A DNA stretch of 64,000 bases from Byssovorax sp. (GTDB lineage: Bacteria; Myxococcota_A; Polyangia; Polyangiales; Polyangiaceae): the NCBI GenBank assembly GCA_025362495.1, contig JANYGI010000079.1, forward strand, positions 19,138-83,137, written 5' to 3'. Below, in pieces: positions 2,302 through 20,508 of this stretch. The notes beneath the pieces were generated by a model that did not search any database, was not told the origin of the DNA, and worked only from the letters and a program-made list of their open reading frames with translations. A program made the position numbers and the translations under genes. The stretch's first letter is position 1. Each line of letters begins with the position of its first letter.

Positions 2302-5300
2302 CTACTTCGTCGCCGCCGTCACCGTCACCTCCATCAGCCCCGGGTTCCCTCCGCGCTCCTCCTCGAACATGTTGCGCACGCACACCGCGAAGCGCGCCGG
2401 CGCCTCGTGACCGTCGCGGCTCACGGTGATCCCCGTCGCCGCGAGCGGGATCCGGACCTCGTCTTTACCGCAGAAATCCACGGAGAATCGCTTCACTTGC
2501 CCGCCGCCGACGACGCGCGACAGGGCGTCCGGCAAGCACACCCAGCAGAGATCTCCCGGCACGTACCCGGTCTCGATCTTCACGACGAGGTCGACGGAGG
2601 CGAGAGCCGAGAGGCGCCGCGTCGGGCCGCCGTTCTTCTCGATCGCCACGCGCAGCGGGAGCCTGGCGTTGAACGCCTCCCAGTCCTCCTCGACCACGCG
2701 CGTCACCTCGACGGCGATCACGCCCTCGATCGCGCGCACCTCGCCGATCACGCCGACGTGATCGAGCGCCTCGCGCGTCGAAAGGCGCACGCCGTCGAGC
2801 TCGACGACGCCCGCACCGCCGACGATGTTCGCCGCGCCGAGCTCGACCATCAGCGCGATCGCCGCGACCGAGTCCACCGTCGAGTAGAGGCGCCCGTTCT
2901 CGCCGAGGCTCCCGATCACCGTGTTGGCGAGCGAAAGCGCGAGCGCGGTCGACGAGGCGCCGCCCGCGCGCAGCAGCGCCGCCGCGGCGTACGCGGCCTC
3001 GGCGCGCAGCCCGACCGCGCCGCCGCCCGTCGACCCCCGGCTGCCGCTCGCCAGGCGCTGCACCAGCGTGATCGCGCTCGCCCGCGCGCCCTCGGGGCCG
3101 TGGGCGATCGTGGCGTAGGCCTCCTCGCAGTTTCGTGGCGGGTTCGGCGGCCACGAAATTCCCTGCGCGCGCGTGGTGTCGTCGGCCATCCGCAGCGCCT
3201 CGTCGATCGCCTTCGCCAGCGCGCGCCCGGGCGCCGCGGGGCCGCGCAGATCGCGGAGCAGGCCGACGCTCCACAGGTGCCGCGACGCGAGCTTGCCCCA
3301 GTACTCGTTCGGCTCGGGCGACGACTCCGGGTACATCTTGAAGCCCCGCCCCGGGAGCCACATCGTCGCCTCGCGCCGCACGCCGGCCACGAGGATCGAC
3401 TCCGCGTGAGAGCGGGTCCACGGGTCGTCGGCCATCACGTACATCGCGGCGGCGGCGAGCATCTTCGCCGCGGTCTGCTCGCAGCACGCGTGGCCGTAGT
3501 CCGCGGTCGCGTCGACCAGCGCGCGGAACGGTTTGTCGAGGCCGGGGAGCACCCGCAGGCCGATCACGTCGGCGTCACGCGTCGCGCTCTCGCCCGGCTG
3601 GAGGAAGCGCACAGCACGCGCGATTTGCCTCATTTTACCGGGGATCTCGACGTCTTTCTCGGCGTGATCCCGCGCGCCCGACGCGTCATCGATCACGGCC
3701 TCCCAGCGGCCCGGCCCCGCGACGAACGTGAGCTCGGCGAGCCCACCCGCGAGCGGCGCGTCGCTCGCGAGCGCGCGGCCATCGAGGAAGAGCGGCACCG
3801 CGGCGCCGTCGCGCGTGACGCGGACGCGAGCGCCAGCGCCGCGCGCTCCGACGTGGACGCGCCCGACAGCGCCGTCGAGCGGGTGCACGAACGCCGGCAG
3901 ATCGAGCGAGACGAACACCTCTTTCTGAGCGCGAAAACGAGCCTCGATCGGCGCCCAGTCGACGCCGGCGATCACGAACGCCTCGACGAGGTACTCGGCG
4001 AAGTCGCCGCCGAGGTGCGCGGTGATCGTCGCGCGTCCGCCCTCGGTCGGCACGAGGCCCGCGAAGAGCACCTCGGGCTCGTCGACGGATGGCGGCGGCG
4101 GCGTGGCGGCCTCGCGGTACGGGCTCGCGGCGACGGGGCTCGGCGACGCCATCGGCGCGCCGATGCTGGGCCGTCGCGCGCCATCCACAGCGGGCGACCC
4201 CGGCATCGGCGGGCTCGGCGGAGGGCTCATCCCGGGAGGCGGGCCGTAGCTCGGAGGCGACGCGGGCGACGCGCTCAGCGGGTACGGTGCCGGAGGCGGC
4301 CCGCCGAACATGGGCATCGAGGGGATCGGGCCACCGTAGCTTCGCATCATCGGCGGCGGCGGCGCGGGGATCGCCTGCGCCAGCGTCCGCGTCGGCGCGC
4401 CCACGACGAGGACCTTTCCCGCGGCCTCCGCGAAGGCTTTGAGCCCACCCGCGAGGCGGCTCGTCGGGGTGTCCGGCGTCAGCAAGCGCGCGTCCTTGAT
4501 CACCACGTAGACCGACGCGTCGTCCGTCGCGCGCCCGGTCTCGATCACGATCACCGTGTCCCCGCCGGGCTCGATGCGCTCGGGGACGGTGAGGCGCGGC
4601 GTGATCGTCGCGCGCGTGATCACCGTCGCCCAGCCCTCCCACGCTTCGCCTTCGATCCACGCGCCGATCGCGATCAGCGCCATCGGCCCGGGCACGTCGA
4701 GCTCGATCACCTGCCCAGCGGCGACGTCGTCGAGCGCGATCTCGCGCGGCCCGTCGAACAGCGCCGCGAAGCGCGGGTGGCCACGCAGCGCCGCGAGATC
4801 CTCGTCGTTGCGCAGGAACGCGAGGTCGATCCAGCCGTCGCGGACCGCCGCTTCGAGCGACGCGAGGCCGCGCGCGACGTCGCCGCTCCGCGCGTGGCAG
4901 CACGCGAGGTAGTACGCGTAGTTCGGGTGCGGGTTCGCCTGCTCGGCGATCGCCGCCTCGAACGTCGATCGCGCCTCGGCGATCTTGCCCTCCAGGAACA
5001 GCGCCTCGCCGCGCCGGTAGCCCTCGTCGACGTACGACGGATGCGGCGCCGTCGCGGGATCCACGGCGCCCGGTCGCCGCAGCGGCCGCGTCGGATCGAC
5101 GATCACGATCCGCACCGTCTCCGCGGCGGTCATCGCGGTGACGCGCGCGCGATCGACGTCGACACGATCGAGGCGAAACGGCGTCGATCGCGTCGCGCCC
5201 TCGTCGAGGTAGATGCCTCGCACCGGCACGGATTGCTCGCCCGGCAGCAGCGATCCCGTCACCTCGGCGCCGAGCGGCGAGAACACCGTGCGCGATCGCT

Positions 5301-6177
5301 CCGCCGCGCGGCTCCCCACGATCGGCACGGTCGCGGTGCGCCCGGGATCGCTCACGAGCTGCACGTTGATCGCGTGCGGCCCGGCGCCGGTGAGCGTGAA
5401 GCTCGCCGTCACCACGCCCGCGCCCGCCTCCGCGATGACGCTCGCGAGGCGCGCCCCGCGATCGGCGAGCTCGAGCTGCACCTGACCGTCGATGGGCACG
5501 CCGAAGCTTTCGAGGCGCAGCGTCACGTGGAGCTGCGAGATGTCGAAGCGCCGATCGACGAGCGAGGCCACGAGCGGCGCGAGGCGGTACGCGGCGACGG
5601 TGAACGCGCACGCGGGCGAGCTCACGGGCGCGCCGCGGAGCCGCGCCTCGTAGTCCCCCGCCGGGAGATCGCGGAGCGTGATCGAGGCCGCCCCGCGGTC
5701 GTCGAGCCGCGCCGCGTGCTTCGCGAAATCAGCGCCATTCACCGTGATTTCAAGCACCGCCTCCGCGCCCGCGGCGAACGGATCGAGGGCGAGCAGGTTC
5801 ACTTCGTCGCGCCCTTCGCGATACAGGGCCTTGTCGCTCGTCACGGCCGCGAGCGAGAGCATCGGCAGCGCGGGCGGGCTCATCGTCGCGCCGGGGAGGA
5901 GCACCGGATCGCGATCGAAGAGCGAGATCACCTGCGGACGCGGCGCGCGGCCACCGCCGAGCAGCCGCTGGATCCAGCCCATCCCGGGCTTCTGAAACGC
6001 GCTCTTGCCGAGGAACGCGAACGCCTTCCCCAGGAGGATGTCCTCGCCGAGGCTGCGCGCGAGCGCGTCGTCGGTGACGGTCAGCGAGGGCGCCGCGCCC
6101 TCCGCGCGCGGGTTGAAGCCGCAGTTCGAGCAAGGCCTCGAGTCAGGGACAAAAGCGCCGCACCGAGGGCAAGACAT
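2302..6177 (-). CDS. Alpha-2-macroglobulin-like protein with N-terminal zinc ribbon
   Basis: 1291 aa from the ATG at 6177, which has AGAAGG upstream; an earlier in-frame ATG at 6213 adds only 12 residues. Residues 3-19 form a CPRC...CSNC zinc ribbon. Several beta-rich macroglobulin-type segments follow, then a TPR-like helical stretch (about 380-475) and a Pro/Gly/Met-rich linker (about 595-700). A helical thioester-type domain contains CCEQT at 898-902, which fits the C-x-E-Q thioester signature, followed by helical hairpins typical of the family. Known bacterial macroglobulins are secreted or lipid-anchored protease traps; this one shows no signal peptide or lipobox and starts with a zinc ribbon. 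It may be cytoplasmic or exported another way. Family call is good; location and target are unknown. Confidence 0.75.
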   Translation of the reverse strand: MSCPRCGAFVPDSRPCSNCGFNPRAEGAAPSLTVTDDALARSLGEDILLGKAFAFLGKSAFQKPGMGWIQRLLGGGRAPRPQVISLFDRDPVLLPGATMSPPALPMLSLAAVTSDKALYREGRDEVNLLALDPFAAGAEAVLEITVNGADFAKHAARLDDRGAASITLRDLPAGDYEARLRGAPVSSPACAFTVAAYRLAPLVASLVDRRFDISQLHVTLRLESFGVPIDGQVQLELADRGARLASVIAEAGAGVVTASFTLTGAGPHAINVQLVSDPGRTATVPIVGSRAAERSRTVFSPLGAEVTGSLLPGEQSVPVRGIYLDEGATRSTPFRLDRVDVDRARVTAMTAAETVRIVIVDPTRPLRRPGAVDPATAPHPSYVDEGYRRGEALFLEGKIAEARSTFEAAIAEQANPHPNYAYYLACCHARSGDVARGLASLEAAVRDGWIDLAFLRNDEDLAALRGHPRFAALFDGPREIALDDVAAGQVIELDVPGPMALIAIGAWIEGEAWEGWATVITRATITPRLTVPERIEPGGDTVIVIETGRATDDASVYVVIKDARLLTPDTPTSRLAGGLKAFAEAAGKVLVVGAPTRTLAQAIPAPPPPMMRSYGGPIPSMPMFGGPPPAPYPLSASPASPPSYGPPPGMSPPPSPPMPGSPAVDGARRPSIGAPMASPSPVAASPYREAATPPPPSVDEPEVLFAGLVPTEGGRATITAHLGGDFAEYLVEAFVIAGVDWAPIEARFRAQKEVFVSLDLPAFVHPLDGAVGRVHVGARGAGARVRVTRDGAAVPLFLDGRALASDAPLAGGLAELTFVAGPGRWEAVIDDASGARDHAEKDVEIPGKMRQIARAVRFLQPGESATRDADVIGLRVLPGLDKPFRALVDATADYGHACCEQTAAKMLAAAAMYVMADDPWTRSHAESILVAGVRREATMWLPGRGFKMYPESSPEPNEYWGKLASRHLWSVGLLRDLRGPAAPGRALAKAIDEALRMADDTTRAQGISWPPNPPRNCEEAYATIAHGPEGARASAITLVQRLASGSRGSTGGGAVGLRAEAAYAAAALLRAGGASSTALALSLANTVIGSLGENGRLYSTVDSVAAIALMVELGAANIVGGAGVVELDGVRLSTREALDHVGVIGEVRAIEGVIAVEVTRVVEEDWEAFNARLPLRVAIEKNGGPTRRLSALASVDLVVKIETGYVPGDLCWVCLPDALSRVVGGGQVKRFSVDFCGKDEVRIPLAATGITVSRDGHEAPARFAVCVRNMFEEERGGNPGLMEVTVTAATK

Positions 6178-6278: not shown

Positions 6279-8291
6279 TCAGGTGGCCGACTGCTCGGCC
6301 GGCGCGCTGCCGGGGGTACCCTGCGCGACCGGCACGCGGAGCTGCCCGCCGCTCTGCTGTGCGAGGATGCCGAGCGCCTTCTGGAAGAAGCCCGTGAGGA
6401 ACGGGATCTCGCGCGGCGGCGCGGTGATCAGGCCGGCCTCGCGGATCGCGCGGGCCACCGAGAGCACCTCGATCGCGCGGTCCTGGCCCTTGCGCGAGCG
6501 CACCGAGATCGCCGCGTCCGAGAGGCGACGCGACACGATGTCGCGCACCTCGGGGGAGAAGAAGCGATCGGTCGCGGCGTCGATCTCCTCGCGGAGCGCC
6601 TCGTTGACCTTGTCGGGATCGCTCACGCCCTCGGAGCCGAGGCGCTCGCCGACCTTGGCCAGCATCTCGTCGAGCGCCCCGCGATCGGGGAGCCACGCGC
6701 GCATCTCGGGCTCCTGGTGGAGCGCGCCCGAGACCAGCCCCGCTGCCGCCGCCTGCTCGACCGTGATCGCCGCGTCGAGCTCGGCGAGCGGGTGCGCGCA
6801 CTCGGTCGCCGTCGTCTCGATCAGCTCGCGGCAGGCTTCGAGCCCGAGCGGGAGCACCTGGCGCGAGGTCGCGTTGAGCTTGCGCGACTGGGCGATCCGG
6901 TGACGCGCCCACTCGACCGGCACGGCCACGGGAGCGACGCCGAGGCCCTCCATCGCGCGCGTGCGGCCTTCCTTGATCTGCGAGCCGCTGAGCCAGCCGC
7001 TGCCGGCCTGGATGATGCCGAGCGGCTCGCGGATGATCACCTCGGCGATGTGGTAGCGCCCCGAGGCGTCCTTGCTGGTGATCGACAGCGAGAAGGTGCC
7101 CGAGCCGTCGGGCGGGATCATCGTCGCTTCGATCGAGACCTCGGCGCGGTCGTCCATCTTCACGACGTGGCGGCGCTCCGGGATCGCGACGCCGCGCGAG
7201 CGCAGCACGTTGAGGGCGCGGCGAGCCGCCTTGCGGGCCGGGCCGGCGACGTCGTCGCTCTCGACGGCCTCGACGATCGCGCCGACGTTGGAGGCCGCGA
7301 GCCACGCGTCCACGAGTGCCGCGGCGCCTTCGCCCGCCGACACGAGCGCGGCCTTCGCGCCCGTCTGGTCGACGCTCACGAGCGCCGGATCGAACGTCGC
7401 GCCGCCCTCGGCCTTCGCGGCCGCCTTCGGCTTCGCGGCGGCGTCGGTCATCGCCTTGGTGCGAGCCGCGAGCGCCTCCTTCGGCGTGAGCGCGGGCTTC
7501 ACTTTCCCCTGGGCGGGGCGCTTGGGAACGAACACCGGGATCGGCGTCAGCGCCTTGGGGAGCTGCTTCGCGGGCGCCGCGGGAGCGACGGGCCTCGCCG
7601 GGGGAGCCGCCGGACGCGCCGCGGGCATCGCGGGCCGAGCGCCCATCGGGGCGCCGTCGGGACGCGGACCACGCGGGCGATCGTCGCGGCGCGGCGCTCC
7701 GCCTTCGGGGCGCGGACCACGCGGCCGGTCACCGTCGGCGTGCGAAGCGTGCGGCGCGGCGCCGTCGGGGCGCGGACCACGCGGGCGATCGCCGAAGTCA
7801 CGCGACGGCCCGCGCGGGCCGCCGGGGAGCGGCCGAGCGCCCATCGGACGCGCCGCGGGACCGCTGTAATCGCCGGGGGTTCCCCAGCCGTGCGGCCCAT
7901 CGACGGGGGCCTCGGGCGCCGGAGCGCGCGGGCCGCCGGGGAGCGGGCGAGCGCCCATCGGACGCGCTTGCGGAGCGCGGTAATCGCCCCCGCCGCGGTT
8001 CGATCGGTGATCGTTCGGGGCCGGCGTGCGGCGCGGCGCGCGCGCATCGAACGTCGCGCGCGGGCGAGCCGCGGGGGCATCGCTGCTGCCCTCGGTCGTG
8101 GCGCCGGCAGCGGCGGCGGCCGGAGCAGCCTCGGCGCCCTCGGCGGCCGGCGCGGCGGCGTTCTCTTCGCCGGGGGTGAACCCCGGCTGCTCACGCGTGC
8201 TCGCGGATCGGCGCACGATCTTGCGCGTCTTCGCGGCGGCGGGCGCCGTGGCGTCCGTGGGCTTGTCCGAGGTGTCGTCGTCCTTCGTCAT
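6279..8291 (-). CDS. Conserved unknown protein with Arg/Pro/Gly-rich disordered half
   Basis: 670 aa. Residues 1-250 are low complexity: an acidic/Ala start, a short basic patch (TRKIVRR), two copies of RPMGARPLPGGPR and three copies of DRPRGPRP, resembling RGG-type RNA-binding or phase-separating tails. Residues 290-650 are a mixed alpha/beta and helical region I do not recognise; they contain a regular beta patch (VEVSIEAT-like, then FSLSITSKDASGRYHIAEV) and long amphipathic helices. No signal peptide or membrane segment is visible. It is probably cytoplasmic. It sits between ridA and the macroglobulin-like gene, with gaps of 88 and 101 bp, so operon membership is uncertain. The start ATG has only a weak ribosome site. 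Confidence 0.65.
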   Translation of the reverse strand: MTKDDDTSDKPTDATAPAAAKTRKIVRRSASTREQPGFTPGEENAAAPAAEGAEAAPAAAAAGATTEGSSDAPAARPRATFDARAPRRTPAPNDHRSNRGGGDYRAPQARPMGARPLPGGPRAPAPEAPVDGPHGWGTPGDYSGPAARPMGARPLPGGPRGPSRDFGDRPRGPRPDGAAPHASHADGDRPRGPRPEGGAPRRDDRPRGPRPDGAPMGARPAMPAARPAAPPARPVAPAAPAKQLPKALTPIPVFVPKRPAQGKVKPALTPKEALAARTKAMTDAAAKPKAAAKAEGGATFDPALVSVDQTGAKAALVSAGEGAAALVDAWLAASNVGAIVEAVESDDVAGPARKAARRALNVLRSRGVAIPERRHVVKMDDRAEVSIEATMIPPDGSGTFSLSITSKDASGRYHIAEVIIREPLGIIQAGSGWLSGSQIKEGRTRAMEGLGVAPVAVPVEWARHRIAQSRKLNATSRQVLPLGLEACRELIETTATECAHPLAELDAAITVEQAAAAGLVSGALHQEPEMRAWLPDRGALDEMLAKVGERLGSEGVSDPDKVNEALREEIDAATDRFFSPEVRDIVSRRLSDAAISVRSRKGQDRAIEVLSVARAIREAGLITAPPREIPFLTGFFQKALGILAQQSGGQLRVPVAQGTPGSAPAEQSAT

Positions 8292-14969: not shown

Positions 14970-16706
14970 TTACTCCTTGGATTTGGGCTCTCGGCTTTCT
15001 ACACGCCAGACACCGACGGCGAGGTTGGCGAGAGCCTCTTGACGGCTTCGAAGCGTTGCGGGGGTCCACTCTTTCGCGACGATGCGGCGAGTCAGTGAAT
15101 ACCTACTTTTTCGATAGACTGCTCGTTTTCGGTCGTAGCCCGCTGCCCCCAACCCGGCGTTCAAGGAATGCTCCATGGGCGTGAGGTTTCCCAGACGCGT
15201 CGTATCGCGCAGTCGATCTTCGGGGGAGAATGTTTCCCATTCCGGGCCAGGATTTTCCGGGAGAATGTGCTCCATGGTGACATCGCCAAGCTCGAAGTTG
15301 ATTGTCTGCCCACCCGCTGCCGCTTCGAGTTCGCCCATGAGATACCGGAGCCACCGCTTTCGCGAGCCCTTCGGGTCGATGCTCAGCACGGCGAACTGGG
15401 CACGGAACTCGTCGTCAGAGGGCGTGATGTCGGCGAGAGCACGGGCGATCGAGTGTGGACTCTTGAGCTCGCCGTTCGCGATACGAATTGCGGTCGACTG
15501 ATTGGCGCGTTGCACGTCTCCCGTGTTGACTCGAACGACAGTGGCCCGAACGGAGATCATCACCAGGTTCCCGAGCAAGCGCGAGAGCTTTTCGGGCCGA
15601 TCCGCAAGCTGCTGGTAAGCTGCGAGAATCACCGGACGATACTGGTGAGCACCCAGGATATCGAGTACAAAAACGCTCTTTCGGGCTTCTGGGAAGTCGA
15701 CCCAGAACTCGTCATTCGGATCGTCGAGCGCGGAGTAGACGTCCGCAGCGGCGCGCAGCTCGCGAAGGAAGTCGAATACGGACTGCTCGTGAGGAACCAA
15801 GCGTTTCACTTCGGAGAAAACACGCTTTTCACGCAGTTCGGGGACTGTTGCCGCGAGTTTGTGAAAGAGCAAGGAAGCAACCTGGGGCATCGGGACCAAG
15901 CGGAGGATCTGCTCCCACAACAAGCGAGCCTGGTCGAGATCGCTGCTCCCTCCCTTTGCGGCCATCGCGAAGACGAAGTTCTTCAGCAAATCCGCGGTGC
16001 CAAGCGCGACCCCACGCGCATTGAGAGTCTCGAAGACTGCGAACGCGGTTTCGTCGTCTTGAACGGTGATCGAGATGAATCGGAGGCGGGGAGCGATGAC
16101 CTCTTCCAGAAAGCGAGCAAGCTCGGGGCCGTCAGCGTTCTCCCCTAGATGCTTACGCACGGCATTGTCGAAGAAGACAAACGCGCGATAAAGGCGTTTT
16201 TCGGACCCCTTCAGTGCCGCGGGGCGCGGGGGAGAAACACCTTGAACGAGGTAGGTTTGGTAGAACGCGTTATCCGTCGCGTTCAGCTCGAGGCGGCTCC
16301 GGTGCTGGAGCGAGGCTGAGTCCTTCGTGCTGACAAATCTCTCTCGGAGCAACCTGGCTCGCTCGAGGTTGTCTTTGGCGTCGACAGCGCCGGTCTTCGC
16401 CAACTGCTCGACTCGAATGATGATCGCGAGCGACAGCAGGCTGAGGGTGACGAGCCTCTGCTGTCCATCAATGATGTTCATCAACCCCCGTTCGCGAGTC
16501 GGCTGCAGCACGAGCGCTCCGAGGTAATGGTTGCCCGGCTCTCCGCTCGACGTTCCGAGCTCGCGAATGTCGGCCCACAACTCGGACCATTCGGTCTCGT
16601 CCCATGCGTAGTCGCGCTGGAACATCGGGACGGTGTAGCGCTTGCCGTTGCTCAGTATGTCGGCCAGCGTGGCGGGGTTGGCGGTCAGTTCTTCGCGGAT
16701 CGGCAT
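14970..16706 (-). CDS. Single-chain GmrSD-type DUF262/DUF1524 protein (type IV restriction-like)
   Basis: 578 aa. N-terminal DUF262 signatures: RYTVPMFQRDYAW (residues 22-34), HYLGALVL and IIDGQQRLVTLSLL (near residue 80); this domain binds and hydrolyses nucleotide in GmrS. The C-terminal DUF1524 half has the His-Me nuclease motif DVTMEHILPENPG (near 477), followed by LGNLTPMEHSLNAGLG and a final Asn/Lys region, as in GmrD. GmrSD enzymes cut glucosylated or otherwise modified phage DNA. All key residues seem present, so it may be active. GC content is visibly lower than in its neighbours, suggesting transfer. No partner gene is adjacent; it faces the DUF5722-type gene with 20 bp between stops. 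Confidence 0.88.
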   Translation of the reverse strand: MPIREELTANPATLADILSNGKRYTVPMFQRDYAWDETEWSELWADIRELGTSSGEPGNHYLGALVLQPTRERGLMNIIDGQQRLVTLSLLSLAIIIRVEQLAKTGAVDAKDNLERARLLRERFVSTKDSASLQHRSRLELNATDNAFYQTYLVQGVSPPRPAALKGSEKRLYRAFVFFDNAVRKHLGENADGPELARFLEEVIAPRLRFISITVQDDETAFAVFETLNARGVALGTADLLKNFVFAMAAKGGSSDLDQARLLWEQILRLVPMPQVASLLFHKLAATVPELREKRVFSEVKRLVPHEQSVFDFLRELRAAADVYSALDDPNDEFWVDFPEARKSVFVLDILGAHQYRPVILAAYQQLADRPEKLSRLLGNLVMISVRATVVRVNTGDVQRANQSTAIRIANGELKSPHSIARALADITPSDDEFRAQFAVLSIDPKGSRKRWLRYLMGELEAAAGGQTINFELGDVTMEHILPENPGPEWETFSPEDRLRDTTRLGNLTPMEHSLNAGLGAAGYDRKRAVYRKSRYSLTRRIVAKEWTPATLRSRQEALANLAVGVWRVESREPKSKE

Positions 16707-19534: not shown

Positions 19535-20275
19535 TCATGCCGCTGCATAGTCCCCGTACCGTCGGCGGTTGATGTGCTGAAACGCGAGGACGATATGGTC
19601 CTTCGGAATTCCGGCCGCTTCGAGGTCGCGCGCCACGCCTCGCTCCGTGCCGTCGTGTTGAATCCAGATCTTGCCATCGAGGATGTCGACGTGGAGGAGC
19701 GGCGCGTGAACACGCTTGTGCCCGTCCCACCCCACCGCCATGAGCAGATAATGATCCTGCGCGCGGTCGAACACGGTGTAGAGCGCGACTTCCCCGTACG
19801 ACACGGGCACGCGGGTCTCCTCGGTCAGAATGCCTTCGATCAGGTCTCGCCACTCAGCGGGGGTGTCCACAGGATGATCCTTTCTTCTGCGGGGTCGAAG
19901 CAGAATCACGCGGTCCAGCGCGTGCGCGAGCGCCGTCTCTCCGATCGGCTCCTGAAACAGCGTATTCCACACGTCGTCGGGCACGGCCAGGAAGAGCAGG
20001 CGGCCGGGATCCTGACCGGCGAGCAGCGCGCGGTAGAGCACGTGCTGGCCCATGGCCTGCTCCAGGGCGTCGACGTCGGACGGACCGCTGAACGTCTTCA
20101 CTTCCACCGCGATGCGCAGCGACCCCTTTTCTGCGGCGAGCAGCCGCTCTGCGCCGAGATCGACGTAGAGGCTGCGGCGGCCCGAGGTCAGCCGGAGGGG
20201 ATCGTGCGTGATCGTCCACCCATCACGAACCAGCGCGTTCCTCGCGGCGTTGTGGAGGCGATCTCGTGCAGGCAT
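19535..20275 (-). CDS. xisHI: XisH-XisI fusion (fdxN element excision controlling factors)
   Basis: 246 aa. Residues 1-~130 match XisH: MPARDRLHNAARNALVRDGW, SLYVDLGAERLLAAEKG, IAVEVKTFSGPSD (Asp, Glu and Lys of a PD-(D/E)XK-like fold), and LLFLAVPDDVWNTLF. Residues 136-246 match full-length XisI: SYGEVALYTVFD, MAVGWDGHKRVHAPLLHVDI, GKIWIQHDGTERGVA, IPKDHIVLAF. In cyanobacteria these are adjacent separate genes needed with a recombinase to excise the fdxN element. Here the join lies at a CCCC run (19891-19894): removing one C gives XisH its conserved tail AEERIILW and a TGA at 19840, with XisI starting at the GTG at 19870. Either a recent frameshift fusion or a base-call error. No recombinase gene is nearby. 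Confidence 0.85.
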   Translation of the reverse strand: MPARDRLHNAARNALVRDGWTITHDPLRLTSGRRSLYVDLGAERLLAAEKGSLRIAVEVKTFSGPSDVDALEQAMGQHVLYRALLAGQDPGRLLFLAVPDDVWNTLFQEPIGETALAHALDRVILLRPRRRKDHPVDTPAEWRDLIEGILTEETRVPVSYGEVALYTVFDRAQDHYLLMAVGWDGHKRVHAPLLHVDILDGKIWIQHDGTERGVARDLEAAGIPKDHIVLAFQHINRRRYGDYAAA

Positions 20276-20433
20276 GACGTGCGATTGTCCTACGTCCGGC
20301 GGAGGGGGGAGGCAAGCGTCGCGGGGTGATCGGCCGAGCGCGCTCGAGGTCGCCCAGCAACGTCCTGCGATCGCAGGCACCACCCGGCCACCGCCGGCGC
20401 CGTCCTGCTCAGCGCGCTCCACCGGAAACGACA

Positions 20434-20473
20434 GAACCCCTCGCCGCTCCTTGTCCGGAGCCACGAGGGGTTC
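20434..20473 (-). terminator. Long hairpin terminator after the M15 peptidase gene
   Basis: GAACCCCTCG (20434-20443) pairs perfectly with CGAGGGGTTC (20464-20473), and the interior GCTCC/GGAGC extends the stem. On the minus strand it is followed by a T-rich but not pure stretch (TGTCGTTT). It lies 36 bp after the stop of the minus-strand peptidase and separates it from the xisHI gene. Confidence 0.75.
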
Positions 20474-20508
20474 GTCAAAGGCCCCTGAAAGACCCTCTCT
20501 TCACTCGA

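Follow-up and report, generated by a model that had tools for sequence, protein, structure and literature searches.

XisH and XisI are both reported to be required in the XisF–XisH–XisI system that excises the fdxN element of Nostoc PCC 7120 (PMC4874684), and the view of the two proteins as helpers of a serine recombinase in this process is based on Nostoc (PMC4874684, PMC4853749). Their role has also been called unclear or still to be disclosed. For Lyngbya majuscula, cotranscription of xisH and xisI and putative LexA sites before xisH are reported (PMC2674450).

Here we analyze an XisH–XisI locus in a 64,000-nt stretch of a Byssovorax sp. contig, referred to below as the window. Its two proteins are homologous to those of the fdxN system, but the setting differs: large serine recombinases of the XisF type (PF07508) gave five matches in the genome (contigs C102, C10, C61, C194 and C27), none of them on the contig of the window or on that of a second XisH–XisI pair in the same genome (C128 and C218). 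The preliminary description was therefore right in that no large serine recombinase lies beside xisHI, and a recombinase partner was rejected on this ground. Compared with the solved XisH–XisI pair (PF08814/PF08869), the window has like domains, gene order and overlap; it differs from the ordinary pair in that the genes are fused by one extra base and the XisH tail is missing. As to the presence of the pair outside cyanobacteria, which had been remarked upon, the pair is widespread there; it occurs in records titled Chloroflexi, KSB1, Poribacteria, Planctomycetales, Acidobacteria and others.

The fused reading frame

On the minus strand, the assembly contains an open frame of 246 aa between an ATG at 20275 and a stop at 19535, as had been described. 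The frame extends upstream to a GTG at 20464; the relatives that were read begin at the ATG. Residues 1–119 of the fused protein match XisH (PF08814; E 3.2e-41, 141 bits against a cut-off of 25) over positions 1–119 of the 134 in the Pfam family, and residues 137–244 match XisI (PF08869; E 6.4e-35). The XisI part alone gives an E-value of 1.1e-36 and 126 bits (cut-off 25) over positions 1–109 of 110 and matches structure 3d7q_B with a TM score of 0.90 by target length over 107 columns. Solved structures of XisH (2inb and 2okf) and of XisI (3d7q, 2nlv, 2nwv and 2nvm) were found both by sequence and by fold search. With both Pfam matches well above their cut-offs and solved structures matched, the proposed homology of the two halves is supported. 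Beyond XisH itself, Foldseek gave weak matches, among them nucleases of the nicking, restriction and Cas4 types. A filing as a defence system was rejected: PADLOC gave no match for the fusion, the intact relative P0002 or the XisI part, and NCBIfam gave none for the fusion or P0002. Carriage by viruses was rejected as well, as none of 47 pattern stretches in viral contigs is a relative.

The alternative-frame stop at 19840, the GTG at 19870 and the 31-nt overlap between the two frames, all previously noted, are likewise found in the sequence. The features of the locus are collected in Table 1.

Table 1. Features of the xisH–xisI locus, in window coordinates
Feature	Position	Strand	Basis
xisH in its own frame, residues 1–123 and first base of codon 124, from ATG 20275	19906..20275	-	PF08814 match; up to 91% identity to separate XisH
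XisH D39, E58 and K60 (PD-(D/E)XK-like)	20096..20161	-	Conservation in 36 intact relatives
Extra base, within ATTCTG	19903..19905	-	ICFDP of relatives; XisI start at +405, not +404
Frame-shifted stretch LLRPRRRKDHP, replacing the XisH tail and serving as linker	19871..19902	-	Sequence; coil in the fusion model
AAAGGA, likely Shine–Dalgarno sequence of xisI, 7 nt before GTG	19878..19883	-	Sequence; AAAGG in the second pair
TGA that would end xisH in the ancestral frame	19840..19842	-	Sequence; P0002 search
xisI, GTG start 19870–19868, 111 aa, intact	19535..19870	-	PF08869 match; separate 111-aa relatives

The window also holds, at 14970–16706 on the minus strand, an open 578-aa GmrSD-type gene with the Pfam domains GmrSD_N and GmrSD_C, whose best PADLOC match is HEC-06 (E 3e-161). 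The gene is real, but 2.8 kb and other open frames separate it from xisHI, and nothing in the analysis links the two. An inverted repeat (aacccctcg / cgaggggtt) found by eye at 20430–20490, downstream of a VanY-type gene, looks like a terminator.

Ancestral arrangement of the locus

Among the 120 listed matches to the whole fused protein, 108 are XisH alone and 12 contain both domains. All 14 listed matches at 84–91% identity over the XisH part are XisH alone, with lengths of 142–149 aa; tails and starts were read directly in five of these. The seven best XisI matches, 84–89% identical, are separate 111-aa proteins, and in the four that were read the start residue is the one coded by the GTG at 19870. 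Because XisH and XisI are separate in the nearest relatives, the ancestor of the locus had two overlapping genes. The ancestral lengths given earlier, about 144 and 111 aa with one extra base, fit these relatives.

The spacing of the two starts was compared in a set of 80 loci from named genomes, 79 of which have both parts within reach. In 53 of these other loci, the start of XisI lies in a different frame, shifted by one, at a distance of exactly 404 nt from that of XisH. The same +404 spacing is seen on contig C218, in this genome's second pair, where XisH is intact with 138 aa and XisI begins with ATG. The window departs from this overlap, with the XisI start at +405. The spacing of +404 elsewhere and in the second pair against +405 here is more than chance. 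A spacing of +405 occurs in five of the 79 loci as well, and the XisH frame is cut at 70–99 aa in all five.

Position of the extra base

The preliminary description placed an extra C in the CCCC run at 19891–19894 and considered that deliberate slippage at this site might yield the fusion plus the two separate proteins. CCC-C is known to slip, which speaks for such a mechanism. To locate the base, each of 35 positions was left out in turn and the resulting tail was compared with those of relatives. Omitting a base in the CCCC run gives ILLRPAEERIILW, which contains ILLRP, a motif found in none of the separate relatives of the alignment. Only 19903–19905 (ATTCTG on the minus strand), of the positions tried, give ICFDPAEERIILW. 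The tails of P0002–P0005 and P0010 (88–91% identical) read [IV]CF[DN]P[AV]EERI[IV]QW, followed by a few residues. Because the relatives read ICFDP, the extra base is assigned to 19903–19905, 9–14 bases from the CCCC site, and its position is fixed to within three letters; our guess is that the new letter is a doubled T. With intact P0002 as the query, the alternative frame also yields a match to the XisH tail (P0002 residues 122–143, 82% identical, E 8e-6). DNA of close kin was sought in 377 genomes of the phylum; three matched, this genome among them, and none was close.

With the extra base outside the CCCC run, slippage there is unsupported. A slip at CCCC would give ILLRP instead of the conserved [IV]CF[DN]P, and the plain overlap at +404 is used by the second pair and by the 53 loci above. 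We therefore rejected the CCCC run as the source of the fusion and regard a deliberate slippage site as very improbable.

Consequences for XisH and XisI

In a hand-chosen alignment of 36 intact XisH relatives, the tail residue W136 is invariant (36/36), and conservation at F126 and E131 is 90% or higher. W136 is absent from the fused frame, and the C-terminal strand expected of XisH is lacking. E58 and K60 are also invariant, and D39 is at least 90% conserved, in the same relatives; these three residues, which we take to be a PD-(D/E)XK-like motif, are all present in the fusion. The earlier statement that both domains are kept is thus correct for the XisH core residues and for the whole of XisI, but the last XisH strand, with its invariant Trp, is gone. 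Structural models agree: the tail of intact P0002 (pLDDT 87.5) forms strands at residues 123–127 and 132–137, and in the fusion model (pLDDT 87.2, pTM 0.69) the first of these strands has lost one residue, the second is gone and XisH passes through a coil into a complete XisI. The fusion model retains a confident XisH core, which could leave room for some remaining activity. Because the conserved tail Trp is lost, the gene is filed here as a damaged XisH and not as a working one, and we infer that XisH does not work without its last strand.

The xisI frame, its start and a Shine–Dalgarno-like site are intact in the window. AAAGG is present at the equivalent place in the second pair of this genome, and AGG or GGA occurs 5–16 nt upstream of XisI in 55 of 59 intact pairs elsewhere, a count made without a chance control. 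Given AAAGGA 7 bases before the GTG and AAAGG in the second pair, a separate XisI is likely still translated from its own GTG start.

Our preferred reading, to which we assign a probability of about 0.65, is that an extra base close to the 3′ terminus of xisH joins it to xisI and likely inactivates XisH, while XisI is still made. The inserted base swaps the XisH tail for a linker and leads in frame into the overlapping xisI; the XisH nuclease would be disabled, and XisI would be made as part of the fusion and also separately, starting at its GTG. The fusion itself would be an accidental by-product of the overlapping layout. A single inserted base would give the fusion over ~87% of this gene, almost anywhere after xisH codon 17; the same fusion-prone share in 59 intact pairs elsewhere has a median of 5% and a range of 0.7–100%. 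Because one inserted base nearly anywhere in the gene runs into xisI here, a fusion is expected as a by-product. The loss of XisH would be tolerated if XisI restrains a nuclease that is harmful to its own cell.

Sequencing error or mutation

The extra base could instead be a sequencing or assembly error, in which case xisH and xisI are distinct, overlapping genes in the living cell. In favor of an error, the assembly is a draft in 240 contigs, the remainder of both reading frames is intact and no fusion occurs among the 14 listed relatives at 84–91% identity. The site, however, is not in a long single-letter run, and a damaged XisH with an intact XisI recurs in many other assemblies (see below). 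We also scanned 403 kb of this genome for frameshifts by codon usage, with strict and looser settings. The strict scan, which picked up 73 of the 100 insertions that we simulated on this contig, shows no frameshift at a distance from natural stops: its three frame switches each lie 58–89 nt from a natural stop and are therefore likely gene overlaps. The looser scan flagged five, including three unexplained switches on this contig that speak for error; one of these three is 85 nt and two are >500 nt from a stop. The switches seen with the looser setting only are at window positions 7632, 8010 and 60065, of which 8010 and 60065 are those >500 nt from a natural stop. Frameshift errors in this assembly look uncommon. 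The base-call error raised in the preliminary description keeps a small but real chance, reduced by the strict scan, and we infer that the base is a true mutation.

Other damaged or fused loci

Six of the 317 genomes of the class have a match, this genome included. Besides the window, the class has seven XisI loci, and XisI is intact in six of them. Two of these seven loci have an intact XisH (G041 and this genome's second pair) and two a partial one (G285, with a frame change near residue 28, and G148, with residues 56–138 only); at the other three no XisH was found. At loci L012, L011 and L007, which belong to G285 and G286 (same family), the G285 XisH is frame-shifted, and G286 has two intact XisI with no XisH match beside either.

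Proteins with both domains bear on a further possibility, that the fusion is a working single-chain nuclease–antidote protein kept by selection. The XisH core residues and all of XisI are retained, the model folds both halves and both domains occur together in 12 of the 120 listed matches. In addition, an independent 248-aa in-frame XisH–XisI fusion is present in Plectonema cf. radiosum LEGE 06105 (L020, 6001–6744), and this protein and P0001 (66% identical) interrupt XisH almost exactly where the window does. The shared break point may be due to chance, a weak spot or a hint of a useful fusion. However, P0001 is altered at both ends too, and inspection by eye of the 12 two-domain proteins shows that nine (P0007, P0009, P0022, P0025, P0026, P0028, P0030, P0035 and P0036) consist of a shortened or frame-shifted XisH with a whole XisI and that in the other three (P0001, P0033 and P0034) XisI is damaged as well. 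In P0009, 81% identical, most of XisH is deleted and XisI is whole. In the window, the linker is a frameshift by-product, the conserved tail Trp is lost and the nearest relatives are separate proteins. We give a selected, working fusion only a slim chance.

Loss of XisH beside a retained XisI

The fused gene is in itself an ordinary frameshift. Less ordinary, and the part worth following, is that partner loss runs mostly one way. In 20 cyanobacterial genomes, hand-picked from loci holding XisH, there are 309 matches to XisI and 241 to XisH, fragments counting as matches. Each genome has 5–27 XisH and 9–36 XisI matches; XisI is in excess in 16 of the 20, the opposite is true of three and one is a tie. 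An excess in the same direction is reported for Thiomargarita, with four xisH and seven xisI (PMC4853749).

For a closer comparison, about every fourth row was taken from the best part of the 309 and 241 matches, giving 40 XisI and 40 XisH anchors with six loci common to both samples. XisI is intact at all 40 XisI anchors, and XisH beside it is intact at 19, partial at 14 and absent within ~700 nt at seven, so that 21 of the 40 lack an intact XisH. XisH is intact at 32 of the XisH anchors, and an intact XisI lies beside every one of these (32/32 versus 19/40; Fisher 1.8e-7). At the eight XisH anchors that are not intact, XisI is intact in five and partial in two, and the contig ends in one. 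After clustering at 70% identity, a locus that lacks an intact XisH is present in 16 of the 24 XisI clusters, and the 32 intact XisH are spread over 26. The in-frame stops recorded for XisH were set aside, since nearly all of those rows keep a full-length open frame.

In the 80-locus set, both genes are intact at 62 loci, a partial XisH accompanies an intact XisI at 11, both are partial at three, an intact XisH accompanies a partial XisI at three (L026 and L070, which run off the contig, and L019, which is real) and an intact XisH has no XisI at one (L085); the 85% cut-off used for this set scores L020 and the window as intact. Because the fused query favors same-frame loci, the set was left out of the test of one-way loss. 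The exceptions among 64 intact XisH clear of contig ends are L019, where XisI is in two frames, and L085, where no XisI was found. The latter (5055–5432) is an intact XisH without a nearby XisI match in an Armatimonadetes MAG. Across the sampled genomes, XisI frequently lacks an intact XisH partner, and an intact XisH is almost never found without XisI. An XisI that stands alone could act for an XisH encoded elsewhere in that cell.

A possible nuclease–antidote pair

The pattern expected of an enzyme that is rarely without its antidote, and an antidote that is often alone, is what the anchored samples show, with L019 and L085 as exceptions. It suggests a restraining role of XisI on XisH: if XisH is harmful to its own cell unless bound by XisI, then XisI would rarely be the first to be lost. 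Toxin–antitoxin and restriction-type pairs offer a parallel, as XisH–XisI likewise has an overlapping two-gene layout, a nuclease fold and many copies, and shares plasmid carriage (46 records) and a mostly one-way loss of partners. We put forward, tentatively and as a reading that may well be wrong, that XisH–XisI is a self-harming nuclease with its antidote, carried on chromosomes and plasmids of many phyla, that fdxN excision is a side use and that XisH is repeatedly disarmed, freshly so in the window. Toxicity of XisH and protection by XisI are predictions from the pattern of partner loss, which is not proof.

We did not find XisI proposed as an antidote of XisH in the accessible passages of the literature that treats XisH or XisI together with toxin–antitoxin or antitoxin. 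For Moorena, XisH and XisI are named among the domains of machine-predicted toxins of contractile injection systems (PMC11297309), and a link of these domains to toxins has thus been raised in another setting. The putative LexA sites reported before xisH in Lyngbya majuscula would fit a link to DNA damage. Structures have been solved, copies are many in the 20 cyanobacterial genomes, and one-way loss turns the question of what XisH and XisI do into a test of toxicity and rescue.
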